Below, in pieces: positions 172 through 30,461 of a stretch of DNA of 34,070 bases. The position numbers were made by a program, and so were the translations under genes. Origin of the DNA: Gammaproteobacteria bacterium (GTDB lineage: Bacteria; Pseudomonadota; Gammaproteobacteria; SZUA-229); NCBI GenBank assembly GCA_013042055.1, contig JABDQW010000087.1, positions 1 through 34,070 of the forward strand, in the 5' to 3' direction. Every line of letters begins with the position of its first letter. Positions within the stretch are counted from its first letter, which is position 1. Under the pieces are notes generated by a model, which saw nothing but the letters and a program-made list of their open reading frames with translations, ran no database searches and was not told the DNA's origin.

Positions 172-231
172 GACACGGGGGAAATATCCCATGCGGTGTC
201 ATGCGCATAGCGCACTCTCATCTACCGCTAA

Positions 232-2187
232 TCAACGCGCCTGCAGCCAGTAGAAACGATACGATGGTATCACCAACGCGTTCTTGAACATCGCCGGTTT
301 TTCGCCGCTATAGAGGTCATATAGCTGCGTTTGCTGCACGAAACCCGTCGGGATAATGTCATCGATCTCCATGTGTTGAGGACGTGCATCGAAGTTACCG
401 ACGATAAGCACCCTGTCGCTAACATGATGAGGATCAATGCGGCAGAACGAGAACAGATGTGGATTACCGCTGTCACGCAGTTCACGGTTGTTGAAATCAG
501 CGAAAGCAGGCGTTTCCTTACGCACTGCGATCATTTTTTTCAGCGCCTGGAATATTCGGTTTTCGATCGTGTTGTGCTTGTTTCGCAGTTCGGCCTTTTC
601 CCAGTCAAAGGTCGGACGATGCATCCAACGCGTGTCACCTGACTTGCGTTCATCCTCGACGTATCGGTAATCATTGGTGGTGCCTATCTCATCACCGTAG
701 TAGAGTAGCGGTATACCACCGAATGACATGATCATGCCATGCAACAGGATGATGACTTTGATGGCGTCGTCGATTTCCTTTGGATCGCCCCGCTCTAACG
801 CGACTTCGAGACCTACCAATGAGGCCAGTGATCCGGAAATGCGTGCATCACCGGTCTTGGCGTTATGCCCAAAGGGCATACCACGCGCAAAGGAGTCCGC
901 ATACTGGCCGGTAAAATAATCGATCAGGTAACGCCGGTGGGGTATTGGGTCGTAGCCTGCGAGCCGGATGTCAGTATCGTCGAAACCCAGGCCAATATCA
1001 TCGTGGCAACGAATGTAGTTCAACCAAGTTGCCCGCTCGAGCTTGTCGGGCAGACTTTTTATCCCCTGGTTCAACAGCCGGGCGCTCTTTGTCGCAACCG
1101 CATCCCAGAGCAGCGCCATGAAGGTGGCGTTGTAGGCAACTTCACACTCCTTCGCGTTGATCGCATCCTCACCAAAATATTTAGCAACCTCCACTGGCGC
1201 AACAATGGCTTCTGCGATGAACAGCACGCCGGGCGCTGTCACCTGGCAGCAGTCTTTCATCAATTGCAGTATCAGGTGCGCTTCACGCTCGTTCTGACAG
1301 GTGCTGCCAATTTTTTTCCACAAGAACGCAACCGCATCCAGGCGCACGATATCGGCACCATGGTTGGCCCAGAACAGAATGATGTCCATCATTTCGATGA
1401 ACACCGCCGGATTGTTGTAGTTCAGGTCCCACTGGTAATGCTTGAATACCGTCATTACCCATTTATCCATACCCTCGATCCAGGTGAAATTACCCGGCGC
1501 GGTATCCGGGAAAATCTCTGGCATGGTTTGTTCGAACATATCGGGTATTTCACGATTCGGAAAAACATAATAATAATCTTGATACCTTTCCTCACCCTGC
1601 TTTGCTCTTAGCGCCCACTCGTGTTCATCGGATGTATGATTGAGCACGACATCGAGTGTCAGCAGGATATCCCGTTGTCTTAGCTCCTGAGCCAGATTAT
1701 CCAGGTCTTCCATAGCTCCGACACGTTGATCGATCTCTCGATAATTACTGACCGCATAGCCACCATCGCTGTGTCTACTGGGACAGGCCATGATCGGCAT
1801 GACATGTACCATGTTGACGCCCAGATCCTGAAAATAGGGCACTTTGCCAGTGAGGGTTTTCAGATCGCCAGCAAAACCATCGCTGTACAGTGCCATACCG
1901 GCCCATTGCTGGTTTAGAAACCAGTTATGATCACGTTCACGCTCGATATCTAAATGCTTGAGTGCATCCGGACGCAGGATGTATTGACGCGCCATGGTTT
2001 CGACCAGCCGCTGCGCCTGCTGCCTGAAATCATCACGGTCGCCGTACAGATAGTGGAACAGCGTGTAGATTGAAAAGAAGTTGGCGCCCAGCCGGGTATA
2101 AAAGTGACGTATGTTTTCACTTTTTATATCCGGCTTCAACTCCGTCATTATGTCATTGAGTAATGAGTGCGATACCTGTTCGTACAT
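232..2187 (-). CDS. ams: Amylosucrase (GH13 sucrose glucosyltransferase)
   Basis: Amylosucrase transfers the glucosyl unit of sucrose onto an alpha-1,4-glucan and releases fructose. The 651-residue length fits the family, whose Neisseria polysaccharea member has about 636. Visible GH13 motifs are VVLNHTSDEHEW (180-191), VRLDAVAF with the likely nucleophile D284, FIAEAIV with the acid/base E326, and CHDD with H395-D396. An N-terminal helical domain (about 1-90) precedes the barrel, as in amylosucrases, and no signal peptide is seen, so it is probably cytoplasmic. It is the last gene of the minus-strand operon, 195 bp after fructokinase, which would phosphorylate the released fructose. A sucrose hydrolase of the same subfamily is the main alternative, but the sps-spp-fruK neighbours favour amylosucrase. 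The ATG start at 2187 has no strong Shine-Dalgarno. Confidence 0.9.
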   Translation of the reverse strand: MYEQVSHSLLNDIMTELKPDIKSENIRHFYTRLGANFFSIYTLFHYLYGDRDDFRQQAQRLVETMARQYILRPDALKHLDIERERDHNWFLNQQWAGMALYSDGFAGDLKTLTGKVPYFQDLGVNMVHVMPIMACPSRHSDGGYAVSNYREIDQRVGAMEDLDNLAQELRQRDILLTLDVVLNHTSDEHEWALRAKQGEERYQDYYYVFPNREIPDMFEQTMPEIFPDTAPGNFTWIEGMDKWVMTVFKHYQWDLNYNNPAVFIEMMDIILFWANHGADIVRLDAVAFLWKKIGSTCQNEREAHLILQLMKDCCQVTAPGVLFIAEAIVAPVEVAKYFGEDAINAKECEVAYNATFMALLWDAVATKSARLLNQGIKSLPDKLERATWLNYIRCHDDIGLGFDDTDIRLAGYDPIPHRRYLIDYFTGQYADSFARGMPFGHNAKTGDARISGSLASLVGLEVALERGDPKEIDDAIKVIILLHGMIMSFGGIPLLYYGDEIGTTNDYRYVEDERKSGDTRWMHRPTFDWEKAELRNKHNTIENRIFQALKKMIAVRKETPAFADFNNRELRDSGNPHLFSFCRIDPHHVSDRVLIVGNFDARPQHMEIDDIIPTGFVQQTQLYDLYSGEKPAMFKNALVIPSYRFYWLQAR

Positions 2188-2234
2188 TGCCGTTAATTAA
2201 GCTTGATAAGCGTCGGTCTGGCGCGAAATGCGTA

Positions 2235-2380
2235 ACCGTAGCTACGGTTTGAGTGAAGAGATCGTAGGGTGCGCCGTGCGCACCAAGAATCTTGTGTTTG
2301 GTAGCCCGTTCTGGTGCGCACGGCGCACCCTACGAATTTGCACAGACGAAGACCAGACTGAACCGTGGTAGGCATGCTAA
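2235..2380 (+). mobile_element. Degenerate MITE copy split by nested element
   Basis: The flanks CCGTAGCTACGGTTTGAGTG (from 2236) and ACGAAGACCAGACTGAACCG (from 2346) match consecutive internal segments of the dispersed MITE-like repeat. In this copy the segment between them is replaced by the palindromic element at 2261-2336. The terminal repeats are not recognisable. It fills the gap between fructokinase and amylosucrase. Confidence 0.7.
2262..2335. repeat. 24-bp-arm inverted repeat nested in MITE
   Basis: Two perfect 24-bp arms, 2262-2285 (beginning TCGTAGGGTGCGCCG) and 2312-2335 (ending CGGCGCACCCTACGA), enclose a 26-bp spacer. The GTAGGGTGCGC...GCGCACCCTAC palindrome resembles a short repeat dispersed in many proteobacteria; that is from general recall, not a search. 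In RNA it would form a very stable hairpin between the fructokinase and amylosucrase messages, but there is no T-run typical of an intrinsic terminator. Confidence 0.8.
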
Positions 2381-2382
2381 GG

Positions 2383-3276
2383 CTATAGCCCCCAGTCTGT
2401 TATCAATGCCCGGTAGAAATCGCGGTCATGCACAGTTGCCCCCTGTTTTCCCACGATCATTGATGCAAATGCCTGCGCTCGCTGAAGTGTCTGTTCGAGT
2501 GGCCATTCGGAAATTAAACCCGTGATCAGCACTGAGGTAAAAGCATCACCAGCCCCCACTGTGTCAATCACTCTGAGTTTTTGCGCAGGTGACACCGCGG
2601 CAGACCGGCCATCGTCGGTGACTGCAATAGCGCCCTTGTCGCCGAGGGTAACCACCAGACCACTAAGCGCGTGTGAACGCATGAAATCCTCAGCCTGTTC
2701 TTCCACGTCACCATCACCGTTCCCCAGTTGTTTCAACTCATCCTGATTGAGCTTGACCCAATCGGCCTCAGCAACCAGTTGCAGCACATAGCGTCTATCC
2801 CACCACGGATCACGCAGGTTGACATCCATGAACAGCGCACCCATTCGCTGCGCTTTCAACGCCTGAAAGCTTGCTCGCGATACCGGATTGCGCAGAGCCA
2901 GTGTGCCGTGATAGAGCAGGCTTTTTTCAGGCATGCCAGGCAACGAGGCTGCATCGATGTAATCATAGGCACGATGCTCCACGATGCTGTATCTTGGCTC
3001 ATCATTGATGAACGAGATATCGACGCTGCCGGTGGGATGTAATGGATCGCGCTGCAATCCTGTCAACGACATGGTCCAGTCTATCATTGCGGATTCGACT
3101 TGTTCACCGAGTTCATCGTTACCGATACGTGAGATCACCAGCGGCGACATGCCAAATGCCTGCAGATGCCAGGCGACGTTGAAGGGCGCGCCACCCAATA
3201 CCGAGTTACCGTCGGGAAAACAGTCGAACAACACTTCACCGAAGATCAGTGGGGTCGCATGCGCGCTGTCAGTCAT
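2383..3276 (-). CDS. fruK: Fructokinase, PfkB/ribokinase family
   Basis: It phosphorylates fructose to fructose 6-phosphate using ATP. The 297-residue protein has the PfkB substrate-side signature GGAPFNVAWHL (28-38) and the C-terminal ATP/anion-hole motif DTVGAGD (238-244), with D244 the expected catalytic base. Its ATG overlaps the end of the sucrose-phosphatase gene by 8 bp, so the two are probably translationally coupled. Position between sucrose-phosphatase and amylosucrase argues for fructose as substrate, since amylosucrase releases fructose and the kinase returns it to the hexose-phosphate pool, where the operon's phosphoglucose isomerase acts. Another PfkB sugar kinase specificity cannot be excluded from sequence alone. 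Confidence 0.88.
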   Translation of the reverse strand: MTDSAHATPLIFGEVLFDCFPDGNSVLGGAPFNVAWHLQAFGMSPLVISRIGNDELGEQVESAMIDWTMSLTGLQRDPLHPTGSVDISFINDEPRYSIVEHRAYDYIDAASLPGMPEKSLLYHGTLALRNPVSRASFQALKAQRMGALFMDVNLRDPWWDRRYVLQLVAEADWVKLNQDELKQLGNGDGDVEEQAEDFMRSHALSGLVVTLGDKGAIAVTDDGRSAAVSPAQKLRVIDTVGAGDAFTSVLITGLISEWPLEQTLQRAQAFASMIVGKQGATVHDRDFYRALITDWGL

Positions 3277-4120
3277 GCGCCAGTTCCAGTTGCTCCATGA
3301 CTTCAGGGAGATAAAACGCTATACCTTCGAGCACACCCGCCGCATAATAACCATTCATTCCAAGAAAACCACCACGCGCAAAATAAATGGCATCCATCTG
3401 TCCCAGATTCAACGCCTGCTGCTGGGCGCAGTGGCGAACCTCATTGCTGGCATTAGCGACCAGAATTGACTTGATCGGACTGGTCAACACCGCCAGGTCG
3501 TTTCCACTATCACCCGCGAAGACCGTATTCGACAGACCGAAACCGAGCAGGTCCATCAGAAACTCGATCGCATGCCGCTTGCTGGCATTTGCCGGCAAAA
3601 CATCGAGCAAGCCCATATCATCGACCTCGTCCACGCTCCAGATCAAGCTAGCCTTGATCTGATTTTCATAAAGGATATCGTGCATTGCTGACATGATCGC
3701 CTGATGATTGGCATCCAACGGCAGATAATAACTGAGCTTGAATGTGTTTTGTTTGGATGCTTCCTGCAGGCTCAATTGCGGAAGCCCGCTAAAGAGCAAA
3801 CGCATATCATCATGCTTACGATCTAGCCAATCCGCTGCGATCATTCGATCCCAGTCATCCAACTGCTGCCAGTCACTGTTTTTAATTTGAAATATGGTCG
3901 AACCAACATCAGCAATGACATAAGAAGGAAGCGGTAGATGATAGTCGGTGACGGCTTCCTCCACCAGGCGCCGGTCACGTCCGGTCACATAGACAAGCAG
4001 AATATCCGGCGATGCCACCAGCTCGTTGAACTTGTCTCGTGCGCCTGCCGATTCCGGCAAGGGTCCATTTGGCATCAGGGTTCGGTCCAGGTCGGTACAC
4101 AAAAGTAAATGGGTAGACAT
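3269..4120 (-). CDS. spp: Sucrose-phosphatase-like HAD-IIB phosphatase
   Basis: It should hydrolyse sucrose 6-phosphate to sucrose. The 283-residue protein shows complete HAD motifs: DLDRT at 10-14 (nucleophile D10, acid D12), VTGRD with the motif II threonine at about 46, a lysine in FKLSYY (K128), and GDSGND at 203-208 with the Mg2+ ligands. Its start is joined to the synthase stop as TAATG (1-bp overlap), and its own stop overlaps the fructokinase start by 8 bp. The family includes mannosyl-3-phosphoglycerate phosphatase, but direct coupling to sucrose-phosphate synthase makes sucrose 6-phosphate much the most likely substrate. The intact catalytic set contrasts with the altered C-terminal HAD domain of the neighbouring synthase. 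Confidence 0.88.
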   Translation of the reverse strand: MSTHLLLCTDLDRTLMPNGPLPESAGARDKFNELVASPDILLVYVTGRDRRLVEEAVTDYHLPLPSYVIADVGSTIFQIKNSDWQQLDDWDRMIAADWLDRKHDDMRLLFSGLPQLSLQEASKQNTFKLSYYLPLDANHQAIMSAMHDILYENQIKASLIWSVDEVDDMGLLDVLPANASKRHAIEFLMDLLGFGLSNTVFAGDSGNDLAVLTSPIKSILVANASNEVRHCAQQQALNLGQMDAIYFARGGFLGMNGYYAAGVLEGIAFYLPEVMEQLELAHD

Positions 4121-6285
4121 TAAAGGTTAACCTTGCAGTCACGAAAAAAGTCATAATGTTCAATCGCCTGCAGTATCCCTGACGCAAACGGTTTGTCAGC
4201 GTAATAGATGTTCTCGGCGTCCGTTAACTCAGAGAGCTCTTCATGATGGCGGTTGGCGACAACGACGGCTTTGGCATTACCCCTCATCATATCCTCATCC
4301 GCACCTGACCCGCCGGCAGCCAGTATGTGTTCCAGCGGTATGCCCCACATCTCGGCAAACCAGCGCAGCGCGAACCCTTTCGACGCTCTGGCAGGGACAA
4401 TATCGAGATACTGCCCGAATGCCAGCACGACATTGACGGTCTGCTCAAATTGATGTAACCGATGAATGATATCATTCACATCAGGCGCGATGGCAGCATC
4501 GTAATAATAACTGATCTTGTATTTACTCTGTTCCGGTCTAGGTTGCAGCACCAATCCCGGCAGTTCATCAAGCGCGCGCATCACAGCCCGGCGTTTCCAC
4601 ATATGGTCAATATGATTCGACCACGCGGTGTCGTGCGTCAGGCCCGGCATATAGTACATCTCGGTGCCAAGACTGGTAATCAAAACGTCGGGTAAGGGTA
4701 TGTGATACTTCTTCAGAACCTTTAATGCTGAATCCAGCCGGCGGCCAGTAGCAATACCAAATGTGGTGCATCGTCTGTTTTCCTGAATCACGCGAACGAA
4801 CTCCTTCAATGATTCGGGATTGCCGAGCAGGTTCTGATCGAGGTCAGTGAAGAGGGCACGATCGTGGTACAGCATCGGGCGGCGCTTCAGCTCCATTCTG
4901 GTCAACGGCTCGCTCTTGTCAACCACGGGCTGAATCGTTTTCAGGTATTTTTCGGCATGCGCCTGCCATGAATAGTGCTCACGCACACCCTTGATACCAT
5001 TGTGTACGAGCCGCTTCCAGTTATCCCGGTCTTCAAGCACTTTCAGTAAGGTGGTTGCCATCGCTGCCTTGTCCAGCGGATCGATCAAATAACCGTTATG
5101 GCAGTTGTTGATGATATCGATCGGGCCACCGTCTTCAGTCGCTACGATGGGCAATCCCGATGCCGCCGCTTCGATCAGCGTCAGTCCGAATGGTTCCGTT
5201 AATGCAGGATTGACAAAGACGCCTCCTGATGCTGCCGCCAATCGATAGATCACTGGCACTTCGTCGGGGCGATGATGTTTCGGATAGGCTACCTTGCCGT
5301 AGAGATCATACGAATCAATGCTGATAAAGATTTCGGCAAGCACTTCCTGCGCACCCGTCTCCATATCACTGATGTCATCGCGGTTGCCGGCAATGATGAC
5401 CAGGTTTGCGAGCTGTTTGAGCTCTTCGGACTCGCCATAGGCCTCGACCAGAGTATTGATGTTTTTTCTTTGATCAGGCCGCGATAAGGCCAGGATAATC
5501 GGCTTATCCGGTTCCTGCAAAAAACGCGAGATATCCTTGAAAATCGCACTGTTGTGCTGATCCCCGTCTGGGGGGAAAAACAGGTCGAGATCCGTTCCCG
5601 GTGGTACGACTCGCATATTTTCCGGCTGGTAATAGTCATACAGCCCGTACTGATCGAAGATTTCCTGGTTGGTACTGGTAATAACGCGTTCTGCCACGCC
5701 GAGGGTTTCCTCTTCGGCATTGATGCGCCGCGAAATGTTGTATCGCTGTTCTATGGTATCGCGTTTCATACCGCTGGCGAGGAGGCGTTTGCGTTTAATT
5801 CGCCCCAGCGAGTGGCCGGTGTGGATCAGAGGGATATTGAGTTGGTGTGATAAACGGGTACCGACGTAGCCAGCATCGGCGTAATGGCTGTGGATGATAT
5901 CAGGTAAGCGCGTCTGGCTGTTGAGGTAGTCGAGCGCGTTGTCCGCAAAGCTATCGAGCGAATCCCACAAAGCCTCTTTGGGTAAATAACCCGGCTCGCC
6001 ACAGTCGATACGAACGATTCGGGTCTTGTCCGATAATTGTTCGATAACCTCGGCATAATCCTCACTGACATTGGCATCGACAACACGTCGAGTCAGCAAG
6101 TCCGCTTGCATCACTTCCGAACGCGCGCCCAGGGCACCCAGCAGTTCGACGACATATTTGATCTGACCACCGGTATCGGCATCTCGACCGAGCTCCAGGT
6201 CCTGTCCCCGAAGCAGACCATGAATACTGAGCAGAAGAATGTATAGACTGCCATCGTTGCTGTTGCTGTTGGTGTTGGTGTTCAA
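4120..6285 (-). CDS. sps: Sucrose-phosphate synthase, GT4 plus HAD domain
   Basis: It joins a nucleotide-activated glucose to fructose 6-phosphate, giving sucrose 6-phosphate. Residues 12-455 form the GT-B glycosyltransferase, with GRDADTGGQIKYVVELL near 33-49, HSHYADAGYVG at 132-142, SRPDQRKN at 268-275 and the retaining-GT4 pair E364/E372 in EPFGLTLIE. Residues 476-721 form a sucrose-phosphatase-like HAD domain. That domain keeps DLDQN (481-485) and ATGRR (512-516), but its last motif reads GGSGADED (658-665), where the separate phosphatase has GDSGND, so a metal-binding Asp appears lost. The start is TTG at 6285, overlapping the pgl stop as TTGA, with GAGG 7 nt upstream. The N-terminus NTNTNSNSN comes from an AAC/AGC repeat. 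Two-domain synthases of this kind occur in plants, cyanobacteria and some proteobacteria. Confidence 0.92.
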   Translation of the reverse strand: MNTNTNSNSNDGSLYILLLSIHGLLRGQDLELGRDADTGGQIKYVVELLGALGARSEVMQADLLTRRVVDANVSEDYAEVIEQLSDKTRIVRIDCGEPGYLPKEALWDSLDSFADNALDYLNSQTRLPDIIHSHYADAGYVGTRLSHQLNIPLIHTGHSLGRIKRKRLLASGMKRDTIEQRYNISRRINAEEETLGVAERVITSTNQEIFDQYGLYDYYQPENMRVVPPGTDLDLFFPPDGDQHNSAIFKDISRFLQEPDKPIILALSRPDQRKNINTLVEAYGESEELKQLANLVIIAGNRDDISDMETGAQEVLAEIFISIDSYDLYGKVAYPKHHRPDEVPVIYRLAAASGGVFVNPALTEPFGLTLIEAAASGLPIVATEDGGPIDIINNCHNGYLIDPLDKAAMATTLLKVLEDRDNWKRLVHNGIKGVREHYSWQAHAEKYLKTIQPVVDKSEPLTRMELKRRPMLYHDRALFTDLDQNLLGNPESLKEFVRVIQENRRCTTFGIATGRRLDSALKVLKKYHIPLPDVLITSLGTEMYYMPGLTHDTAWSNHIDHMWKRRAVMRALDELPGLVLQPRPEQSKYKISYYYDAAIAPDVNDIIHRLHQFEQTVNVVLAFGQYLDIVPARASKGFALRWFAEMWGIPLEHILAAGGSGADEDMMRGNAKAVVVANRHHEELSELTDAENIYYADKPFASGILQAIEHYDFFRDCKVNL

Positions 6286-6968
6286 TTTGAATCCTCAGTC
6301 TGACCCAAAGCCGCTGCCTGATCAATAAACCAATGCGCTTCACCAATCAGACTGATGGGTAACGTGTCGCCCTGCTCGACCCGCGTCAATGCGTCATGTT
6401 TGTTTGCGCCCGTCACCAATACTATACGCTGGCCAGCCTTTTGTAAGCTTACCATACCCAAGGAAACCCGCTCCTTTGGTGGTTTGGGCGCATCATAGAC
6501 GGGAACGGCAGCACGCTCATCTGTCACCGCGGCGTTGCCAGGAAACAGACTGGCCGTGTGTCCGTCCTCTCCCATACCAAGCAGTACAATGTCCAGGTAG
6601 CCGAGCTCATTGATCAGTCCTGTATAGCGTTGCGCTGCCAGCTCGGGCCCCAGTTCTGCCGGAATCGGGTGGAAGTTATCGGCTGGCGCATCGATTCTGG
6701 ACCAGAGCTTTTGTACGATCATCGTGTCATTGCGCTCCTCATGTGCAACCGGGAAACAGCGTTCATCACCCAGATAGACGTGTATGTTGTGCCATGGCAG
6801 CGGTTGGCTAGAAACAAGCTCAAGGCAGCGCCCCGGGGTGGTACCTCCAGGTAAAGCGATATGACAACGTCCCTTCTGGCCAATACAAGTGATAATTTGA
6901 TCTGTCAGGTAAGCTGCTGCTGCGCGAGCCAGTGCTTCCGTATCCGCGTAAATCGCTGCTTGCCGCAT
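6282..6968 (-). CDS. pgl: 6-phosphogluconolactonase
   Basis: It hydrolyses 6-phosphogluconolactone to 6-phosphogluconate, the second step of the oxidative pentose-phosphate or Entner-Doudoroff branch. Seen in the sequence are the sugar-phosphate-isomerase-like motif PGGTTPG (about residues 40-46) and the lactonase signature GMGEDGHTASLFPG (about 131-144); the 228-residue length is normal for the DevB/Pgl family. Two starts are possible. A TTG at 6974 would overlap the zwf stop as TTGA, and the ATG at 6968, chosen here, leaves a 2-bp gap (TGATCATG). The two differ by two residues. The 3' end overlaps sps by 4 bp. Coupling to zwf supports the assignment. Confidence 0.92.
   Translation of the reverse strand: MRQAAIYADTEALARAAAAYLTDQIITCIGQKGRCHIALPGGTTPGRCLELVSSQPLPWHNIHVYLGDERCFPVAHEERNDTMIVQKLWSRIDAPADNFHPIPAELGPELAAQRYTGLINELGYLDIVLLGMGEDGHTASLFPGNAAVTDERAAVPVYDAPKPPKERVSLGMVSLQKAGQRIVLVTGANKHDALTRVEQGDTLPISLIGEAHWFIDQAAALGQTEDSN
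6293..6296 (-). promoter_or_regulatory. Ribosome binding site supporting sps TTG start
   Basis: GAGG on the minus strand, inside the last codons of pgl, is 7 nt before the TTG at 6285-6283. No good in-frame ATG follows before the conserved synthase core, so this site decides the start. Confidence 0.6.
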
Positions 6969-6970
6969 GA

Positions 6971-8458
6971 TCAAATGGGTTTATGCCAGCCACAGGCGCA
7001 GTCGCTGGCGAGTCCATCCATCGCAGGGATATTCCAGGTGCCCGCGCGGTAACGTTCAATTGAAACGCGGTCTTTCCAGGCCTCCAGAATAGGTTCGACG
7101 ATCTCCCATGACTCCTCGACCTCGTCCGAGCGAGAGAACAGCGTACCGTCACCGGTTAGCACATCGTGCATCAACACCTCGTAGGCATCGGCCACGGCGG
7201 TTGCATCATCCGCATAGGGTGCGCGCATGACCATTTCTTCGTTATCTGTCGTCAAACCAGTTTTTTTCGCATTGAGCCGCAGTACCACCCGCCCATCCGG
7301 CTGCAAGCGAAATATCAAGGCGTTTGGTGCCGGTATCGAAGCGTGACTGTCGAATAGGTTGAAAGGGGGTTTACGGAAACGGATCACCACTTCGGACGCA
7401 CGTTTTTCTAGACGTTTGCCGGACCAGAGTACGAACGGCACGCCTTGCCAGCGCCAATTATCGATATAAAAGCGCACAGCAGCGAACGTTTCGGTAACCG
7501 AATCCGGTGACACGCCCTCTTCGGCAACATAAGCAGGTGCATTTTCTCCATTGATGCTACCCGAAGCGTATTGCGCGGCAATCGTCTGCTGTTTGACAAG
7601 CTCAGGATCAAAACGGCGTACTGCCCGCAGTACTTTCATTTTTTCATCGCGTACTGCATCTGCTGTAAATTCTACCGGAGGCTCCATCGCTACCAAGGTC
7701 ATCACCTGCATCAAGTGACTCTGTATCATGTCCCTGAGCGCGCCGGAATGCTCATAGTATTTAGCACGGTATTCGATTCCCAGCGTTTCAGATACCGATA
7801 TCTGGATATGATCGATATAGTTTCGGTTCCACAAGGGTTCCATTATGCTGTTGGCAAAGCGGTAAACCAGCAGATTCTGCACGCTTTCCTTGCCAAGGTA
7901 GTGATCGATCCGATAGATCTGCCTCTCGTGAAATACCGACTGCAATTCGTTATTGAGCTCGCGCGCAGACTGCAAATTCATACCGAAGGGTTTCTCGATG
8001 ACCAGTCTGCGATAACCTTGTTCTTCTTCCACCAGACCGACATGCTCCAGACCATTGGCGACTCGACCGTACCACTCGGGGGGAATCGCACAGTAGAACA
8101 TGGCGTTTTTCCTACCCTCCAGCGTTTCCAGCGCATCAGCGAGCCGTGCGTAGGTGTCGTCGTCCGCCAGATCGCCAGGTACCATCTTGAGCATGGAAGA
8201 GAATCGGGCCCAGCGGTCGTCATCCATGCCGAGTTGTGGTGAAAATTTACTGAGGCCTTCACGAATCAGATCAAACCAAACCTGCTCCGTGCGGTTATTG
8301 ACGACACCGATGATGCGGCTCTCGTTATGTAGCAAACCGTATTCGAGCATACGGATCAAGGCAGGCATCAACTTGCGTTTGGTCAAATCACCCGCCGCTC
8401 CAAAAATAACGATATTGGTAGGATCTGCGGTTTCTTCATTGTGCTCAGCAGTCACCAT
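6971..8458 (-). CDS. zwf: Glucose-6-phosphate 1-dehydrogenase
   Basis: It oxidises glucose 6-phosphate to 6-phosphogluconolactone and yields reduced NAD(P). The 495-residue protein carries the nucleotide-binding GAAGDLTKRK (20-29), EKPFG (155-159) and the substrate/catalytic signature RIDHYLGKE (183-191) with the catalytic His at 186. It opens the second half of the operon. The glgP gene ends 187 bp upstream, the gap contains a short MITE-like element, and the gene has its own strong Shine-Dalgarno (AAGGAG 8 nt before the ATG), unlike the tightly coupled genes around it. This suggests independent translation initiation and perhaps a separate promoter or a processed 5' end, although no convincing promoter was recognised. 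The gene runs directly into pgl. Confidence 0.95.
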   Translation of the reverse strand: MVTAEHNEETADPTNIVIFGAAGDLTKRKLMPALIRMLEYGLLHNESRIIGVVNNRTEQVWFDLIREGLSKFSPQLGMDDDRWARFSSMLKMVPGDLADDDTYARLADALETLEGRKNAMFYCAIPPEWYGRVANGLEHVGLVEEEQGYRRLVIEKPFGMNLQSARELNNELQSVFHERQIYRIDHYLGKESVQNLLVYRFANSIMEPLWNRNYIDHIQISVSETLGIEYRAKYYEHSGALRDMIQSHLMQVMTLVAMEPPVEFTADAVRDEKMKVLRAVRRFDPELVKQQTIAAQYASGSINGENAPAYVAEEGVSPDSVTETFAAVRFYIDNWRWQGVPFVLWSGKRLEKRASEVVIRFRKPPFNLFDSHASIPAPNALIFRLQPDGRVVLRLNAKKTGLTTDNEEMVMRAPYADDATAVADAYEVLMHDVLTGDGTLFSRSDEVEESWEIVEPILEAWKDRVSIERYRAGTWNIPAMDGLASDCACGWHKPI

Positions 8459-8466
8459 CTATCAAA

Positions 8467-8472
8467 CTCCTT
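8467..8472 (-). promoter_or_regulatory. Strong zwf ribosome binding site
   Basis: AAGGAG on the minus strand, 8 nt before the zwf ATG at 8458. It is the best Shine-Dalgarno in the minus-strand operon and marks zwf as a fresh initiation point after the repeat-containing gap. Confidence 0.7.
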
Positions 8473-8544
8473 TCAGGTATCGGTTACACCGACCGGTTTA
8501 ATTGGCTGCCCGCCAAATCAGCGCGCTTCAAAAAAGTAGTGGGC

Positions 8545-8633
8545 TAGCCCGCATTTCTCACCAGGATCAGGGGATCAGGGGAGCAGGCGCAGCATTCGTG
8601 TTCGTAAGCGCTGCCCGGTGAGAAATGCGGGTC
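8545..8633 (+). mobile_element. Short MITE derivative between glgP and zwf
   Basis: This is an 89-bp deletion derivative of the dispersed repeat. It starts TAGCCCGCATTTCTCACCAG and ends CCCGGTGAGAAATGCGGGT, and keeps the left-end segment GAGCAGGCGCAG and TTCGTGTTCGTAAGCGC but lacks the central part. A GGATCAGG unit is duplicated in it. The TA at the left is matched by CA rather than TA at the right, so the right edge may be mutated. It lies inside the transcribed operon, so it would be present in any glgP-zwf message. Confidence 0.8.
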
Positions 8634-8645
8634 AGTGTTTGTCAC

Positions 8646-11138
8646 TCAACACTCATAGCGAGGTTTCAGCTTCCAGATATTGTCGTTATATTCTTGCATG
8701 GTGCGGTCCGTCGAAAAGAAACCGCTGCATGCCGTGTTCATGATGCTCATACGTAGCCATCGATCCCTGTCCAGGTAGGCGCTGGAGACTTCCTGCTGGG
8801 CATCGATAAAGCTACGAAAATCGGCCAGCGTCAACCATGGGTCGTGCGGGCTTTTGATTGAGGCCAGAATGTCATTGAAAATGCCGGGCTCGAATAGATT
8901 GAAATGACCACTTTCGAGCAGGAATATGACAGCCTGCAGGTCTGGATCTTCATCGATGATTTGCTGCGGCTGGTAGTCGTGTCGACGTTGCTCGACCTCG
9001 TCCGCTTTGAGGCCAAACTGGTAAAAGTTGTCGTCGCCGACGGCTTCGAGTATTTCGATATTGGCACCATCATAGGTGCCTATCGTAATGGCGCCATTCA
9101 TCATGAATTTCATGTTGCCGGTACCAGACGCTTCCTTGCCTGCCGTTGAAATTTGCTCGGAAAGATCCGTCGCAGGCGCAATGATTTCCATTTTGGACAC
9201 ATTGTAATCGTGCAGGAAGGCAACTTTCAAGATGGAGCCAACATCGATATCGCTATTGATGACCTTGGCAACATTATTGATCAATTTGATGATCAGTTTC
9301 GCCATATGATAACCCGGAGCGGCTTTACCACCGAAAAGCACGCAACGCGGCGTCCAGTCTTCAACGCCACCTTGCTTGATACGATTATACAGATGCACAA
9401 CATGCAGTATGTTCAACAATTGACGCTTGTATTCATGAATGCGTTTGACCTGAACATCGAACAAAGCCGCTGTATCGAAGTCGACATCACATTCTCTTTT
9501 AATCAGCTCAGCCAAACGCTGTTTGTTGTGTTGTTTGACGCTGTGCCACTGCTGCCGAAAATCGTCGTAGCCATCTCCGGTCATCGGCTGCAATGCTTCG
9601 ATTTTGGATAAATCCCTGATCCAGTCATCACCGATGTGTTGACTGATCAGTTCCGTCATCTTGGGATTCGCATAGGCGATCCAGCGTCGCGGTGTGACGC
9701 CGTTGGTCTTGTTATTGAACTTATGCGGCCAGAGTTCATAGAAGTCACGAAACAGACCCTCACTCAGTAGTTTTGAGTGCAGCGCCGCCACACCGTTAAC
9801 GGAGAAACTGCCGACCAGAGCCAGGTAGGCCATCCGTACCGCCCTGTCACCACTTTCGTCGATCAACGACATACGCGCCTGCCTATCCCTGTCACCCGGC
9901 CACTTCATCGCGATATCGTGCATATGAAATTTGTTGATTTGATAGACAATCTCCATCAAGCGCGGCAGCAATCTTTCCATCAAACGAACCGGCCAGGTTT
10001 CGAGCGCTTCCGGTAACAGGGTATGGTTGGTGTAGGCCATGGTCCGGCTAGTAATGTCCCAGGCCTGTTCCCAACTCAGCATTTTTTCATCCATCAGAAT
10101 TCGCATCAATTCAACAACAGCGATCGTTGGATGCGTGTCATTCATCTGAAAGACATTATAGTCGGCAAACTCATCATAACTCGGCCCATGGGCGACCTCC
10201 CATTTACGTACGACATCCTTAAGACTGGCCGACGCCAGCAGATATTGTTGTTTGAGGCGCAGTTCCTTACCGCTTTCACTGGCATCATTAGGGTACAACA
10301 CCATGGTGATATGCTCGGCATCGTTCTTCGCTTCAACGGCTTCGGCATAACTGCCCTTGTTGAAATCATCGAGATCGAATACCTCGCTGGCGGTCGATTT
10401 CCACAACCTGAGCGTGTTGACGACATCATTTCGATAACCTGAGATCGGAAGATCATAAGGGATCGCAACGACATCATGGGTATCAGCCCATCGTACGCGT
10501 TCAACACCGTCCTGATCACGATAATGTTTGGTGTGTCCGCCAAAATGAATAGTCTGCTCGAATTCAGGGCGCGCCACTTCCCAAGGATTACCGTCACGCA
10601 ACCAGTGGTCGGGCTCTTCTAGCTGGTAGCCGTTGTCGATACGCTGATGAAACATGCCATACTCGTAGCGCAGCCCATATCCAACCACGGGTAGATCCAG
10701 CGTGGCGCAACTGTCCATGAAACAGGCGGCGAGTCGGCCGAGACCACCGTTACCCAGGCCGGCATCCGGCTCCTCATCGATAACGTCCTCGAGATCAACA
10801 GCGTACTGCATCAGGGCCTCTGCTGTTTCGCGCTTCATATGCAGGTTGAGTAAGTGATTTCCCAGAGCACGGCCGATCAGAAACTCTAGCGACAGGTAGT
10901 ATGCTTTGCGTGTATAGGGCTTATGATGGCTCTTCCAGGTCTGGTGCCATCTGTACATGATACGATCGCGCACCGTTAGCGCCAATGCCTCGTAGAGGTA
11001 GAACGGCACGAAACCCATGAAGTGACCCAGGTGGTTTCGCAGATAACGATGAAAACCTTCCGACAACGACCGGCTATCGGCCGCTAGCGGTGCGGTTTCT
11101 TCAATGGACCCATCTTCAATCCAATTTTTATTGCTCAT
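8646..11138 (-). CDS. glgP: Glycogen/alpha-glucan phosphorylase, operon copy
   Basis: It releases glucose 1-phosphate from alpha-1,4-glucan by phosphorolysis. The 830-residue protein is standard family length. It has EEPDAGLGNGGLGRLAACFMDS-type active-site sequence at about 122-144 and the pyridoxal-phosphate site KEASGTGNMK with Lys677. The ATG overlaps the glgA stop as ATGA. Lying between glgA and zwf, it would feed glycogen-derived hexose phosphate toward the dehydrogenase branch, although a phosphoglucomutase, needed to turn glucose 1-phosphate into glucose 6-phosphate, is not in the window. A second phosphorylase gene at 22718-25231 is clearly different in sequence, so this is not a recent duplication. 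Maltodextrin phosphorylase activity is possible; the family name is firm but substrate length preference is not. Confidence 0.95.
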   Translation of the reverse strand: MSNKNWIEDGSIEETAPLAADSRSLSEGFHRYLRNHLGHFMGFVPFYLYEALALTVRDRIMYRWHQTWKSHHKPYTRKAYYLSLEFLIGRALGNHLLNLHMKRETAEALMQYAVDLEDVIDEEPDAGLGNGGLGRLAACFMDSCATLDLPVVGYGLRYEYGMFHQRIDNGYQLEEPDHWLRDGNPWEVARPEFEQTIHFGGHTKHYRDQDGVERVRWADTHDVVAIPYDLPISGYRNDVVNTLRLWKSTASEVFDLDDFNKGSYAEAVEAKNDAEHITMVLYPNDASESGKELRLKQQYLLASASLKDVVRKWEVAHGPSYDEFADYNVFQMNDTHPTIAVVELMRILMDEKMLSWEQAWDITSRTMAYTNHTLLPEALETWPVRLMERLLPRLMEIVYQINKFHMHDIAMKWPGDRDRQARMSLIDESGDRAVRMAYLALVGSFSVNGVAALHSKLLSEGLFRDFYELWPHKFNNKTNGVTPRRWIAYANPKMTELISQHIGDDWIRDLSKIEALQPMTGDGYDDFRQQWHSVKQHNKQRLAELIKRECDVDFDTAALFDVQVKRIHEYKRQLLNILHVVHLYNRIKQGGVEDWTPRCVLFGGKAAPGYHMAKLIIKLINNVAKVINSDIDVGSILKVAFLHDYNVSKMEIIAPATDLSEQISTAGKEASGTGNMKFMMNGAITIGTYDGANIEILEAVGDDNFYQFGLKADEVEQRRHDYQPQQIIDEDPDLQAVIFLLESGHFNLFEPGIFNDILASIKSPHDPWLTLADFRSFIDAQQEVSSAYLDRDRWLRMSIMNTACSGFFSTDRTMQEYNDNIWKLKPRYEC

Positions 11139-12601
11139 GGTCTCGAGTCAACCTCTGCCCGATAAAGATTATGGTATTCGTTGGCGCTTTTTTCCCAGCC
11201 CACATCCTGACGCATAGCGGTTTTGCAAAGCTCATGCCACAGTTTCGTATTCTTAAATAAATCCAGTGCACTGAGCACCATTGCGAAAAGCGCTTCAGCG
11301 GATTCTTCATTGAAAATAAAACCGGTAGCTGTCTTATTACTCAATGTTTGTAAGCTTACGTTAACCACCGTATCGGCGAGACCACCGGTGTTATTGACCA
11401 CGGGTGGCGTTCCATAGCGCAGACTGTACATCTGGTTGAGGCCGCAAGGCTCAAATCGCGACGGCATGATAAATAGATCAGCACCCGCCTCAATCTGGTG
11501 CGCCAGCTCTTCGGAATAGCCAATATGCACGTGTAACCTATCCGGATAAGCGGCTGCGAGTTCAACCAAGTCCTGTTCATACGCCATGTGCCCGGATCCC
11601 AGTAAAACCATGTTCGCTTCTGTCCGCGCAAGCAGCTGTGGTAACATCGCAGTGATCAGGTCGATACCTTTTTGTTCGACCAGCCGACCAACGAAACCGA
11701 GCAAAGGCGCACCGTTATCAGGTAGTCCAGCCTTGCTTAATAGATCTTTCTTATTAACCGATTTGGCCTCGATAACGCTATCATCGCGGGTGTAGTTCTG
11801 CGCAATATAGCTGTCTGTCTGTGGATTCCAAATATCCAAATCGATACCGTTGAGAATACCGCTTAGTTTATCACCCAAATGCTGCAACACACCTTCGAAA
11901 CGATGACCAAACTCTGGGGTACAGATTTCTTTTGCGTAGGTCGGACTCACCGTCGTAACATGGTTAGAGAAAAACATACCTGCTTTGAGCATAGAAAAAC
12001 CGCCGTAGAATTCAACATAATCAGGTGACCACCAGTGCTGCGGCAAGCCCAGTCTGTTGAAGTCATCATGTGAAAAATAGCCATCATAAGCGAGGTTGTG
12101 TATTGTAAACACGGTCGCCGGTGCATCATGCACCATGCTCAAAAACGCCGGCACCAGCCCAGTCTGCCAGTCGTGGCAATGCACCACGTGCGGGCGCCAA
12201 CTGGATTTCGGTATCCATTTAGCCAGCAGTGCGACGACACGACTGAAAACCGTGTAACGTTCTGCATTATCGGGCCAGGCATAGCCGTCAGAACGTACGT
12301 AGGGACTACCCGGCCTGTCAAACAGATCAGGCACATCTATCAGATAGAGATAGTCACCGAGGATGTCTTCGTGTGCTTTCAGGATGCGCACCTTGTGTCT
12401 GACACCCGCCCCGGGTACGTCGATCATCCCCAGTTCCTTGATTGAGTCGACTGATGCCAATACATCCCGATAGGCAGGCAAGACCAGGCGCACTTCATCG
12501 CCCAGTTTATTCAGCGCGTTCGGCAGACTGTGAATGACATCAGCCAAGCCCCCCGTTTTGATAAAGGGAAATGCTTCACTGGCTGCAAATAATATATTCA
12601 C
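11135..12601 (-). CDS. glgA: Glycogen synthase (ADP-glucose type, GT5)
   Basis: It elongates alpha-1,4-glucan from ADP-glucose. The 488-residue size is typical of bacterial GlgA. Visible are the N-terminal ADP-glucose-binding KTGGL (15-19), HCHDWQTG (141-148), the GRLVEQKG segment of the C-terminal Rossmann domain (305-312) and SRFEPCGLNQ (381-390) with the conserved Glu of GT-B enzymes at 384. The start codon is GTG at 12601, joined to the glgB stop as GTGA, which implies translational coupling. The glgC gene two kilobases upstream in the same operon would supply the ADP-glucose. A starch-synthase annotation would mean the same activity. Confidence 0.95.
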   Translation of the reverse strand: MNILFAASEAFPFIKTGGLADVIHSLPNALNKLGDEVRLVLPAYRDVLASVDSIKELGMIDVPGAGVRHKVRILKAHEDILGDYLYLIDVPDLFDRPGSPYVRSDGYAWPDNAERYTVFSRVVALLAKWIPKSSWRPHVVHCHDWQTGLVPAFLSMVHDAPATVFTIHNLAYDGYFSHDDFNRLGLPQHWWSPDYVEFYGGFSMLKAGMFFSNHVTTVSPTYAKEICTPEFGHRFEGVLQHLGDKLSGILNGIDLDIWNPQTDSYIAQNYTRDDSVIEAKSVNKKDLLSKAGLPDNGAPLLGFVGRLVEQKGIDLITAMLPQLLARTEANMVLLGSGHMAYEQDLVELAAAYPDRLHVHIGYSEELAHQIEAGADLFIMPSRFEPCGLNQMYSLRYGTPPVVNNTGGLADTVVNVSLQTLSNKTATGFIFNEESAEALFAMVLSALDLFKNTKLWHELCKTAMRQDVGWEKSANEYHNLYRAEVDSRP

Positions 12602-14766
12602 CCGCTTTCCTTATGTAAAAATAACCCTGCAAGTGGTGGTAATGTGAGTGTGATTGCATGGTCAAAGCCATGCAGTTTTTGCCTGACGGAAACGACTTTA
12701 CCGGCGTTGCCCTTGTTGCTGCCGCCATACCATGAGGCATCACTGTTCAAAACCTCGACATAAGCGCCTTCCTCCGGTACTCCGACAGGATAATTTTCAC
12801 GCGCGACCGGTGTGAAATTGAAAGCACACACCATGGATTCGTATGTCGAACGTCGAAGAAAGACCAGCACGGAATTTTCTTCATCTTCGCACGTAATCCA
12901 CTGAAAGCCTTCGGGATGAAAGTCGTAGGCATGTAAGGCAGGATTTTCCCGATAAAGTTTATTCAGATCATGAATCAGGTTGGACAGTCCAGCGTGTTTG
13001 TCCATGCCGGCAATCACCCAATCCAGCGCCTTGCTCTCGCTCCATTCGTTCCATTGCCCAAACTCGCCCCCCATGAACAACAGCTTCTTTCCTGGATGAG
13101 CATATTGATAGGCATACAGTGCACGCAAGTTAGCAAATTTCCGCCAAACGTCACCGGGCATTTTATCCAGCATGGCGCGCTTCATATGGACCACCTCGTC
13201 ATGCGACAGCGGCAGTACAAAATTCTCACTGTAGGCGTACAGTTGACTGAAGGTGAGCTGGTTTTGATGGAAGCGTCTGTAAACAGGATCAGATTGGAAA
13301 TATTTGAGGGTGTCGTTCATCCAGCCCATGTTCCATTTCATCGAGAAACCGAGCCCACCGGAATCGGTTGGACGTGACACCTGGGGCCAGTCAGTGCTTT
13401 CTTCCGCCAGTGTCAGCACACCCGGAAATTCAGCATGAACGGTTTGGTTCAAGTGCCTGAGAAAATCCATCGCTTCCAGATGTTCACGCCCACCGTAAAT
13501 ATTTGGCGCCCATTGGCCGTGCTCGCGTGAGTAGTCAAGGTATAACATAGATGCTACCGCGTCGACACGAAGCGCATCGATATGAAATTCCTCGATCCAG
13601 TAAACCGCATTAGAGACAAGGAAGTTACGTACCTCATTGCGGCCATAGTTGAATATCAGCGTGCCCCAATCCTGGTGCTCGCCCTTGTTTGGATCGCCGT
13701 ACTCATAGCAAGCTTCACCAGTGAAGCGGGCCAGAGCAAAATCATCGCGTGGAAAGTGAGCCGGTACCCAATCAAGAATAACACCAACGTTATTCTGGTG
13801 ACAGCAATCGATTAGGTAACGCAATTCATCTGGACCGCCGTGACGTGATGTCGGTGCATAATAGCCGGTGACCTGATATCCCCATGATTGATCGAGTGGA
13901 TGTTCAGAAATCGGCAAGAGTTCGATATGCGTGTAACCCAGATCGCGCACATACGCTACCAGTTGTTCAGCAAGTTCGGTGTAGCTCAGGAAACTGCCGT
14001 CTTCATGGCGACGCCAGGAACCGAGATGTACCTCATAGACAGACATCGGCTCATGCAACCATTGCCACTGCCTGCGTTTTTCTTGCCATGCCTGATCCCC
14101 CCAGTGATACGCTATTTTTGCTGGTACCAGGCTGGTTGTTTCCGGGCGCCTGCTCATGGTATGCGCATAGGGATCGGTTTTGTGCAGGATGTCACCAGCA
14201 TTGGTACGAATTTCATACTTGTATGCATCATGCACGTGTATACCGGGAATGAACAATTCCCACACACCGGATCCACCAAGACTGCGCATCTGATGACGTA
14301 AGCCATGCCAGCCATTAAAGTCACCAACGACGCTGACTCGTTTGACATTGGGTGCCCATACTGCGAACAAACAGCCTTCGATGCCGTCGATAAAACAGAG
14401 CCTTGCACCAAGAATGCGGTAGATATGTAGATGCTTACCCGCCGCAAACAAGTCAAGATCGTATTGACTGATTTGTGGCTCAAAGCTGTAGGGGGACACA
14501 GCCGTATCTCGATGCTGCGACTCTTTTTCGATCCAGCTCAAACTGTAGTGTTGTGGCAGACTGTCCTTCTGTTTCTGACTAATACTTAATTCAAACGTAT
14601 CAGTGTCTTTGACACGCTGCAACGGACCAACACCAACAAGATCAACGCTCTCTGCTGAGGGCATGAAGGCGCGTACAACATATCCTGACGCTTCCTTATG
14701 TATGCCCAGCCACTCAAACGGATCATGATGCCAGCCACGCTGTATTCTTGTTACGGTTTCAACCAT
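12598..14766 (-). CDS. glgB: 1,4-alpha-glucan branching enzyme (GH13)
   Basis: It introduces alpha-1,6 branches into glycogen. The 722-residue length matches GlgB with its long N-terminal extension: an extra beta-sandwich (about 10-105), then the CBM48 domain (about 115-215) and the barrel from about 240. Catalytic residues are visible as RVDAVASM with D402, LTLAEEST with E455 and LSHDEVVH with D523. The start overlaps the malQ stop by 8 bp and the stop overlaps the glgA GTG by 4 bp. Branching enzyme and synthase side by side, together with ADP-glucose pyrophosphorylase in the same operon, make the classical glycogen route complete here. Confidence 0.96.
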   Translation of the reverse strand: MVETVTRIQRGWHHDPFEWLGIHKEASGYVVRAFMPSAESVDLVGVGPLQRVKDTDTFELSISQKQKDSLPQHYSLSWIEKESQHRDTAVSPYSFEPQISQYDLDLFAAGKHLHIYRILGARLCFIDGIEGCLFAVWAPNVKRVSVVGDFNGWHGLRHQMRSLGGSGVWELFIPGIHVHDAYKYEIRTNAGDILHKTDPYAHTMSRRPETTSLVPAKIAYHWGDQAWQEKRRQWQWLHEPMSVYEVHLGSWRRHEDGSFLSYTELAEQLVAYVRDLGYTHIELLPISEHPLDQSWGYQVTGYYAPTSRHGGPDELRYLIDCCHQNNVGVILDWVPAHFPRDDFALARFTGEACYEYGDPNKGEHQDWGTLIFNYGRNEVRNFLVSNAVYWIEEFHIDALRVDAVASMLYLDYSREHGQWAPNIYGGREHLEAMDFLRHLNQTVHAEFPGVLTLAEESTDWPQVSRPTDSGGLGFSMKWNMGWMNDTLKYFQSDPVYRRFHQNQLTFSQLYAYSENFVLPLSHDEVVHMKRAMLDKMPGDVWRKFANLRALYAYQYAHPGKKLLFMGGEFGQWNEWSESKALDWVIAGMDKHAGLSNLIHDLNKLYRENPALHAYDFHPEGFQWITCEDEENSVLVFLRRSTYESMVCAFNFTPVARENYPVGVPEEGAYVEVLNSDASWYGGSNKGNAGKVVSVRQKLHGFDHAITLTLPPLAGLFLHKESG

Positions 14767-28482: not shown

Positions 28483-28487
28483 ACCGA

Positions 28488-28563
28488 GAATAAACCGGGT
28501 CAGAGAATAAACCGGGTCAGAGAGCAATTTGTTCTGATATTAGAAACAATCGCACTCTGACCC
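28488..28563. repeat. Tandem 17-mer plus GGGTCAGAG inverted repeat
   Basis: Two adjacent copies of GAATAAACCGGGTCAGA (28488-28504 and 28505-28521) lead into an imperfect hairpin whose outer arms are GGGTCAGAG (28514-28522) and CTCTGACCC (28555-28563); 8 of the next 12 inner positions also pair. It lies between the convergent DUF389 gene and the glutamate-receptor-like gene, where it could act as a bidirectional hairpin. Its form resembles REP-type elements mobilised by Y1 transposases. Confidence 0.75.
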
Positions 28564-28585: not shown

Positions 28586-29686
28586 TCATTTCCCAATGTA
28601 TTTGACAATCTCCACCTTCCACTCAGGCGTATCACGGATGGACAACAGAGCTTGATTCAATTTTTCCAAGTGTGGACTTTCATCCGGTAGTGCGAATGCG
28701 TAGTTTTGTTTTTCGAATACGAAGTGAAGAACCGACAGCGTATCGTGTCTTCCTTGCGCCTGGGCTTCTTTGATCTCGTATTTCAAGACTACATTGTCGC
28801 CAACCACAGCATCCAATCTACCAGCATCCAAAGCCGCGAGGAGTTTTTGTCTGTCGCTGAAAGTGCGACTGTTGATGCCTTGCTCCTGCAGGTACTCAAA
28901 AGATGTTGACGCTTCCATAACACCTACCTTGACTTTAGCCAGGTCCTGCGGTCTTGTAATCTCTGAATGCATTTGGTCGAGCGTGAAGGCGCTGGCAAGA
29001 AGGGCGGTAATGCTGGCAATCAAAACTGTGCTTCCGACCGCCAGAAAAGCTGCTACTGTGCGCCCGCTCAGCGTTTTAAATTCATAATATCGGATGGGTC
29101 CAGATGTTACAAACAGCAGTCCCGCAATAAAGGCTTCCATTAGCATGCCGCCTTTATTTTTCATCGAATAGAGTTTATCGTTTATATTATGCTCCAATAA
29201 ATACAGGATGCCACCGATCAAAGCTGCCACACCGACAATAATCCCTAAGGCGATAAATATTCTCTCATTGTAGAAAAAGTTCCTGAGTGTTTGCAGAAAT
29301 CCATGCTGCTTCACCGCAATGGCAAGATGCGTCTCGAAAAAAGGATGGGAAAAATCAATGATTTCTTCGCGTTTCTGAGTCATGGAGAGGCAAGAAACCG
29401 CTATATCTGCCTTGCCCTGCGCAACTGCCTCCAGCATCTCTTTGGGTCCATATTCCTCAATACTGTACTCACGGCCCAGTTGTTCAGCAATATTTTCCCA
29501 AAGATAAATGCTTATTCCTGAAAACTGGCCGGCATCGTTCATGACGAAGGGTGGACAATCTAGCGCTGCGACGCGTATCTTCCGCTCCGCTGACTTAGCG
29601 CAAAGTGGATAAGCGAAAAATAGTAATAGTGCCAGTAAAAAGGATCCAGTCAGAGCGAATCTAAGCTCGAGATTTAGGTGCAGCAT
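28586..29686 (-). CDS. Prokaryotic ionotropic-glutamate-receptor-like channel
   Basis: A 366-residue protein with the S1-M1-P-M2-S2 layout of bacterial glutamate-receptor channels such as GluR0. A hydrophobic N-terminal segment (10-30) looks like a signal peptide. Residues 36-125 (S1) resemble the first ligand-binding lobe and contain SMTQKREEIIDFSHPFF, with R106 in the place of the Arg that binds the ligand carboxylate. M1 spans about 143-165, a re-entrant pore loop about 181-203, and M2 about 210-235, containing ITALLASAFT, which aligns with the SYTANLAAF-like segment of animal receptors. S2 follows from about 245, with GDN (296-298) at the usual amino-group Asp. The filter position reads VTSGPIRYYE rather than TVGYGD. 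A plain amino-acid-binding protein is ruled out by the two internal membrane segments. Confidence 0.82.
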   Translation of the reverse strand: MLHLNLELRFALTGSFLLALLLFFAYPLCAKSAERKIRVAALDCPPFVMNDAGQFSGISIYLWENIAEQLGREYSIEEYGPKEMLEAVAQGKADIAVSCLSMTQKREEIIDFSHPFFETHLAIAVKQHGFLQTLRNFFYNERIFIALGIIVGVAALIGGILYLLEHNINDKLYSMKNKGGMLMEAFIAGLLFVTSGPIRYYEFKTLSGRTVAAFLAVGSTVLIASITALLASAFTLDQMHSEITRPQDLAKVKVGVMEASTSFEYLQEQGINSRTFSDRQKLLAALDAGRLDAVVGDNVVLKYEIKEAQAQGRHDTLSVLHFVFEKQNYAFALPDESPHLEKLNQALLSIRDTPEWKVEIVKYIGK

Positions 29687-29713: not shown

Positions 29714-29774
29714 GAAATAAAGGGGACGCTACCCACTACCGAAATAAAGAATAAAGGGGACGCTACCCAATACC
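29714..29774. repeat. Two direct copies of a GGGGACGCTACCCA repeat
   Basis: AAAGGGGACGCTACCCA occurs twice 34-35 bp apart, each preceded by GAAATA or GAATA and followed by CTACC or ATACC (29714-29740 and 29749-29774). It lies just upstream of the glutamate-receptor-like gene. The unit shares the leading AATAAA with the different repeat at 28488-28563. From recall, repeats of this type accompany REP-associated transposases, and a remnant of one lies 300 bp away. Confidence 0.7.
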
Positions 29775-30080: not shown

Positions 30081-30230
30081 ATGCCGCGATGCAACAGGAT
30101 GTATCTTTCAGGCTATCCGTATCACATCATGCAGCGCGGCAATTACCGCAAAGTCTGTTTTTTAGAATCGGAGAATCACCAGTATCATCTTGAATCGTGG
30201 AAGACAGCACCGGTGTGTGCGGTCTTCTAG
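30081..30230 (+). pseudogene. REP-associated Y1 transposase (RAYT) remnant
   Basis: The first 40 or so codons of a RAYT/TnpA_REP transposase: MPRCNRMYLSGYPYHIMQRG then NYRKVCFLESENHQYHLESW. This matches the family's N-terminus (a YHxMxRGN core followed by a K/R and a Phe-rich strand). A strong AGGAGG lies just before the ATG. The expected HxH and catalytic Tyr regions are missing, because the frame runs into the left edge of the MITE-like element, whose TAG at 30228-30230 supplies the stop. Intact family members have roughly 150-300 residues, so this is a truncated pseudogene. Confidence 0.75.
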
Positions 30231-30461
30231 CCCGCATTTCTCAGCAGGCGGCGTTGGGTAATGATAAGGCACTAATTCCGAGAAGAATAGCCAGATGATC
30301 AAAAACACAGTGTGTTATTCGAGCAAGCCTATCACGGTTCAGGCTGGTCTTCGTATCCGTAAGCTTGCTCTTCACTCAAACCGTAGCTTTGGCTACGATT
30401 TTCGCTCCAGAGCGGCGCTTCCTGCGCCTGCTCCCGTGATCCTGGTGAGAAATGCGGGCTA
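30228..30461 (-). mobile_element. Near full-length MITE-like element, inverted
   Basis: The best-preserved copy, in reverse orientation to the one at 25269-25505. It starts TAGCCCGCATTTCTCAGCAG and ends CCTGGTGAGAAATGCGGGCT, flanked by TA on both sides. Read on the minus strand, the internal order is GATCACGGGAGCAGGCGCAG, a CGTAGCCAAAGCTACG palindrome, GTTTGAGTGAAGAGCAAGCT, and AACCGTGATAGGC, matching the other copy through most of its length. It has landed at the end of the transposase remnant and lies just downstream of the CLC gene. Confidence 0.88.

Follow-up and report, generated by a model that had tools for sequence, protein, structure and literature searches.

Does an open reading frame of a gammaproteobacterium that resembles ionotropic glutamate receptors (iGluRs) encode a ligand-gated channel, and what might such a channel conduct if its pore loop has lost the sequence that selects for K+? 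The gene lies in a contig stretch of 34,070 nucleotides (the window, meaning the whole stretch of DNA analyzed). We examined its domain order and predicted fold, the conservation of its pore loop, its origin, and the alternative readings of its function.

The gene encodes an iGluR-like protein

The reading frame at 28586-29686 was found where a preliminary description had placed it; it starts with ATG, has no internal stops, and encodes 366 amino acids on the minus strand. Its features are the following.

28586..29686, minus strand: open reading frame of an iGluR-like protein with a GPIRY pore loop, 366 aa (ORF, Pfam, AlphaFold, Foldseek)
29597..29686, minus strand: N-terminal hydrophobic signal segment, residues 1-30 (hydropathy peak; model helix 6-29)
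29300..29584, minus strand: S1 half of the ligand-binding domain (LBD), residues 35-129 (alignment to the bacterial iGluR homologue LBD 2pyy)
29369..29371, minus strand: Arg106, the Arg for the ligand alpha-carboxylate, invariant among 73 homologues (role as given in the main text of PMC2950845)
29192..29266, minus strand: M1 transmembrane helix, residues 141-165 (AlphaFold model, hydropathy)
29072..29155, minus strand: pore helix (178-195) and filter loop (196-205) (AlphaFold model)
29081..29110, minus strand: VTSGPIRYYE, residues 193-202, in the position of MTTVGYGDKS (alignments)
28976..29071, minus strand: M2, equivalent to eukaryotic M3, residues 206-237 (AlphaFold model)
28985..29014, minus strand: SITALLASAF, residues 225-234, counterpart of the SYTANLAAF gate motif (alignments)
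28595..28960, minus strand: S2 half of the ligand-binding domain, residues 243-364 (alignment to 2pyy)
28796..28798, minus strand: Asp297, the S2 Asp for the ligand alpha-amino group, nearly invariant among 73 homologues (role as given in the main text of PMC2950845)

Pfam matched the protein to SBP_bac_3 (E 3.4e-20, residues 43-365, the match being split by an insertion), to Lig_chan-Glu_bd (E 3e-11) and to Lig_chan (E 1.6e-7, barely above the cut-off at 31.7 vs 30.8 bits). An AlphaFold2 monomer model, built on a 71-sequence alignment with both plasmid-collection rows left out, had a mean pLDDT of 92.3, and showed helices for the signal (6-29), M1 (141-165), the pore helix (178-195) and M2 (206-237), with a non-helical loop at 196-205. 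The top PDB folds found with Foldseek were LBD-TMD structures of AMPA/kainate receptors (E ~1e-20). TM-scores against whole iGluR chains were modest (0.46-0.59, normalised by query length), which may reflect a difference in how the domains are oriented. The best profile-search matches included 2pyy and the GluR0 LBD structures 1ii5 and 1iit. As in the iGluR superfamily, type 3 solute-binding protein (SBP) halves S1 and S2 flank two transmembrane helices and a pore loop, and the protein is a true ionotropic-glutamate-receptor-like protein. We also considered an ABC amino-acid-binding protein of SBP family 3, and rejected it: two transmembrane helices and a pore helix are inserted between the lobes, and all NCBIfam SBP models scored far under their curated cut-offs (for example, 74 vs 256 bits).

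An Arg in S1 and an Asp in S2 contact the amino-acid ligand of iGluRs, according to the main text of PMC2950845, and the protein has both, R106 and D297. Arg106 had been proposed as a ligand-binding residue in the preliminary description; it is indeed an Arg, located in an SMTQKR motif and invariant in the 73-sequence alignment. The likeness of M2 to SYTANLAAF, also proposed there, turned out to be loose: S225, T227, A228, L230 and A231 match, leaving the S.TA.LA core alone conserved, and the remainder of SITALLASAF differs. The broader proposal of a ligand-gated, receptor-like protein agrees with our results, which point to an iGluR-type protein that is probably ligand-gated and has no K+ filter.

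The pore loop is the signature of a clade

The pore region FVTSGPIRYYEFKTLSGR aligned gap-free to TMTTVGYGDKxPxTLxGR of GluR0-type relatives; those in the same class have TMTTVGYGDK at the filter position. In place of the TVGYG K+ filter (Group 1, GluR0-type), the protein has GPIRYYEFK. The loop VTSGPIRYYE had thus been read correctly as the replacement of TVGYGD, at residues 193-202 in an ungapped alignment, and we concur that a standard K+ channel is unlikely, K+ selectivity appearing improbable since the whole VGYGD stretch is replaced. The loop peptide was identical in two other genomes (L003 and L004), with synonymous differences in its codons, and dN/dS among the gene and these two closest copies was ~0.16-0.26; chance or sequencing error is therefore not the source of the loop. 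The synonymous differences among the three copies, together with the dN/dS values, argue for a working gene under purifying selection.

The filter had been presented as peculiar to this protein, and this did not hold. Among the 46 GP-loop homologues that we retrieved, 43 have GPFNY and three GPIRY, with the common consensus LLF[IV]T[K/R/S]GP[F/I][N/R]Y[Y/F]EFK, and T194, G196, P197, Y200, E202, F203, L206 and R209 are invariant in all 46. A wider search of the phylum gave two genomes with the loops FITKGPFNYYEFK (L014) and FITRGPFNYFEFK (L015), and a tblastn search of plasmid-collection records identified the GP loop on 2-Mb replicons of Photobacterium sp. DA100 and Vibrio campbellii, at loci where no gene is annotated. 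These two proteins (L057, L058) belong to the same clade, with 42-48% identity to the window protein and the loop GPFNYFEFK, and their gene surroundings are ordinary, without an integron. In the Vibrio-containing family (that of G563), 72 of the 197 genomes sampled had GP-loop matches, nearly all intact, and the order of G551 gave about ten more, all from one genus; since the survey started from GP-loop proteins, these counts measure conservation of the loop within the clade and not its frequency among all bacterial iGluRs. Three genomes of the Vibrio-containing family (G725, G836 and G875) had interrupted GP-loop genes, suggesting recurrent loss. Apart from this clade, we observed further non-GYG loops (for example NGGFEER, ATSGK.. 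and ATQADQMP) in Pseudomonadota iGluR-like proteins (L023-L025, L027, L029, L030, L032-L039), spread over several sub-branches.

When the pore-loop columns were excluded from the tree, GP-loop proteins were monophyletic (SH-aLRT 100) on a long stem of 1.49 changes per column. The window protein pairs with L003, and then with L004, in a GPIRY sub-branch, and the V. campbellii protein nests inside proteins of family f173. This family is assigned to the same class as the window's genome, and the host of the gene is thus most likely a gammaproteobacterium. Judging from these sequences, the loop is the signature of the whole clade, and GPIRY is a derived sub-version of GPFNY. Exactly one of positions 195 and 199 is basic in 46 of 46 sequences: K/R195 with N199 in 43, including the Photobacterium and V. 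campbellii proteins, and S195 with R199 in three, including the window protein. Since this swap is one event on one branch, it offers only a hint of function. The preliminary description had allowed that a family alignment might reveal a common, K+-selective filter; the filter is common within one clade, but nothing indicates K+ selectivity, with every VGYGD position replaced.

Origin of the gene and an integron cassette copy

The closest relatives of the gene, with 83-84% identity over the well-aligned part, were found in the Olavius algarvensis Delta 3 symbiont MAG (L003) and in a Desulfosarcina MAG, both Thermodesulfobacteriota, while none of the 53 other sampled genomes of its own order had a match. 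The GC content of the gene is 46% and its GC3 is 0.49, whereas five neighbouring genes have GC3 values of 0.58-0.70. From the affiliation of the nearest kin, the absence in same-order genomes and the lower GC, we infer that the gene was likely acquired horizontally, probably across distant bacteria; alternatively, the assembly may be chimeric at this locus. A comparison with three genomes of the same genus, which have a 49-51% DUF389 homologue but not the CLC and Na/Pi genes of the window nearby, revealed no empty site. A phage or virus origin was rejected; viral contigs had no relative, and phage records gave just an SBP match of 20% coverage.

The L003 copy (84% identity, identical loop) sits between two attC-like sites, at 5665-5759 and 7146-7201 of its locus, in an array of ~11-13 such sites (vs 0-1 in shuffled sequence) adjoined by an integron integrase (TIGR02249, 466 bits vs a cut-off of 265). 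In folding, the site at 7146 outdoes its shuffled versions by a wide margin (z -4.8), which the longer site at 5665 does not (z -0.7). The integrase and about a dozen cassettes span 64-13035 of this locus, and, besides the iGluR, the cassettes include a HigA-type antitoxin and a carboxymuconolactone decarboxylase-like protein. The signal-peptide region of the L003 copy (~5938-6046) is frameshifted within a T run, the frameshift being either real or an assembly error. The window copy, in contrast, is neither attC-flanked, nor near an integrase, nor frameshifted. Judging from the cassette copy and the copies across phyla, bacteria may be able to exchange a ligand-gated channel as one mobile gene.

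We rejected an integron cassette at the window locus itself, given that no attC sites were found near the gene; none were found near the iGluR gene of L004 either, and the window's genome had no integron integrase above the cut-off. Another contig (C233, locus L041) has at 1525-1653 a 42-aa remnant that matches the C terminus of an integron integrase and lies next to a transposase-like ORF. Short repeats, GGGTCAGAG...CTCTGACCC and GGGTAGCGTCCCCTTTATT, closely bracket the window gene:

29716..29774, no strand: immediately upstream of the gene, a 25-nt repeat present twice in tandem (GGTAGTGGGTAGCGTCCCCTTTATT as read on the gene strand)
28486..28563, no strand: immediately downstream of the gene, 17-mers in tandem and an inverted repeat of 25 nt (GGGTCAGAG...CTCTGACCC)

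A 19-mer of each is unique to this locus within the genome, and we discarded the repeats as a genome-wide mobile element. Elsewhere in the window, a 21-nt inverted repeat pair (30228-30248 and 30441-30461, 95% complementary, 192 nt apart) lies just past the end of the CLC gene, and a long glycogen and sucrose metabolism cluster occupies 232-25231, with two glycogen phosphorylases, a starch synthase, a GlgB-type branching enzyme, a GH57 protein, a glucokinase, a sucrose-phosphate synthase/phosphatase fusion, G6PD and PGI.

What the pore may conduct

The reading towards which we lean, somewhat above even confidence, is that the gene encodes a horizontally acquired GP-loop iGluR, a periplasmic amino-acid-gated tetrameric channel with a pore that is not K+-selective. 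The fold, the ligand residues and the topology point, as in GluR0, to an inverted pore of four subunits, gated by a periplasmic clamshell that binds amino acids. Four copies would surround this pore, each with both of its termini in the periplasm; the S1 and S2 clamshell would bind an amino acid, probably, through Arg106 and Asp297, and its closure would pull the M2 bundle open. GPIRYYEFK in place of TVGYGDK would remove the K+ coordination cage; once open, the pore should therefore let small ions through without selecting for K+, monovalent cations at low conductance being the most likely. Non-selective cation conduction is therefore our first choice on the loop sequence, as the most likely outcome, with a non-conducting sensor and anion permeation as its rivals. 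Two features of the loop count against a cation channel: Pro197 and the bulky Ile198, Arg199 and Tyr200 could close the pore at the filter, and K/R195 or Arg199 would place four positive charges near the pore, which is unfavourable for cations. The AlphaFold model, being a monomer, has no bearing on pore size.

If the Pro and the bulky residues do plug the pore, the protein may be a sensor that signals through its conformation, or merely binds its ligand. All VGYGD positions are replaced, with bulky side chains at all save Gly196, as this reading expects; yet the pore helix, the gate-like motif of M2 and the loop are strongly conserved in a gene under purifying selection, and no signalling domain is attached to the protein, so that we regard a sensor as unlikely, though worth weighing.

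The single basic residue of the loop would instead form a ring of four positive charges in an anion-permeable iGluR, letting Cl- or other anions pass. It is present in every one of the 46 sequences, as K/R195 in most members and as R199 in the sub-branch of the window protein, and position 195 coincides with the Q/R/N site of eukaryotic iGluRs or adjoins it (in an alignment uncertain by a residue), where Arg lowers the Ca2+ permeability of GluA2 (PMC3483616). However, the exchange between positions 195 and 199 took place just once, on one branch, the net charge of the loop is just about +1 since Glu202 is offset by Lys204, and no description of an anion-selective iGluR was found in the literature searched; we consider anion permeation rather improbable. 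Equally doubtful is the wider proposal that the GP-loop clade constitutes a new class of non-K+ filter built on one basic residue, possibly anion-permeable, that crosses phyla and was once an integron cassette.

An altered filter that still selects K+ is very improbable: the loop has the length of GluR0-type loops and keeps Thr194, but Val-Gly-Tyr-Gly-Asp has become Gly-Pro-(Phe/Ile)-(Asn/Arg)-Tyr, and GYG is the K+ signature that GluR0 retains (PMC13099474). We give as little credit to a decaying or mis-assembled gene without function, to which the frameshifted signal-peptide T run of L003 and the degraded copies in G725, G836 and G875 would point, but which is at odds with the intact window and L004 copies and their dN/dS of ~0.2.

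Comparison with known iGluRs

A literature search that covered few subscription papers gave no description of the GP loop, of its function or phylogeny, of an iGluR in an integron, or of the filter of Vibrio iGluRs. Prokaryotic iGluRs were divided by Ger et al. 2010 (PMC2950845), in its main text, into Group 1, with a K+ filter, and Group 2, with an unrecognised P region. The window protein fits Group 2 as described in that text, with an iGluR topology and a P region of no recognised selectivity; the same main text does not single out the GP-loop clade and proposes no filter (PMC2950845). Bacterial iGluRs without a K+ filter have thus been known as Group 2 since 2010, and the GP-loop clade is, as far as that main text goes, previously unremarked.

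Among the closest known receptors is GluR0 (Synechocystis Slr1257), which shares the S1-M1-P-M2-S2 order, the ligand Arg and Asp, and the lack of an N-terminal domain and of M4. It is a K+ channel in inverted orientation with a GYG filter (PMC13099474), whereas the window protein has the GPIRYYEFK loop. Eukaryotic AMPA/kainate receptors provide the best PDB folds, but with ~20% identity and an unrelated filter, and, unlike them, the window protein lacks both an N-terminal domain and M4. Two Group 2 accessions, YP_204476.1 and YP_132561.1, which we take to be Vibrionaceae proteins, may belong to the GP-loop clade.

In the literature searched, functional characterisation was found for the K+-selective branch of bacterial iGluRs only. 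The GP-loop clade provides a conserved sister clade with a different filter, in culturable marine bacteria and in a small system with two transmembrane helices, and it is thus well suited to asking how a non-K+ channel arose from an inverted K+ pore, a step that the evolution of animal receptors required as well.
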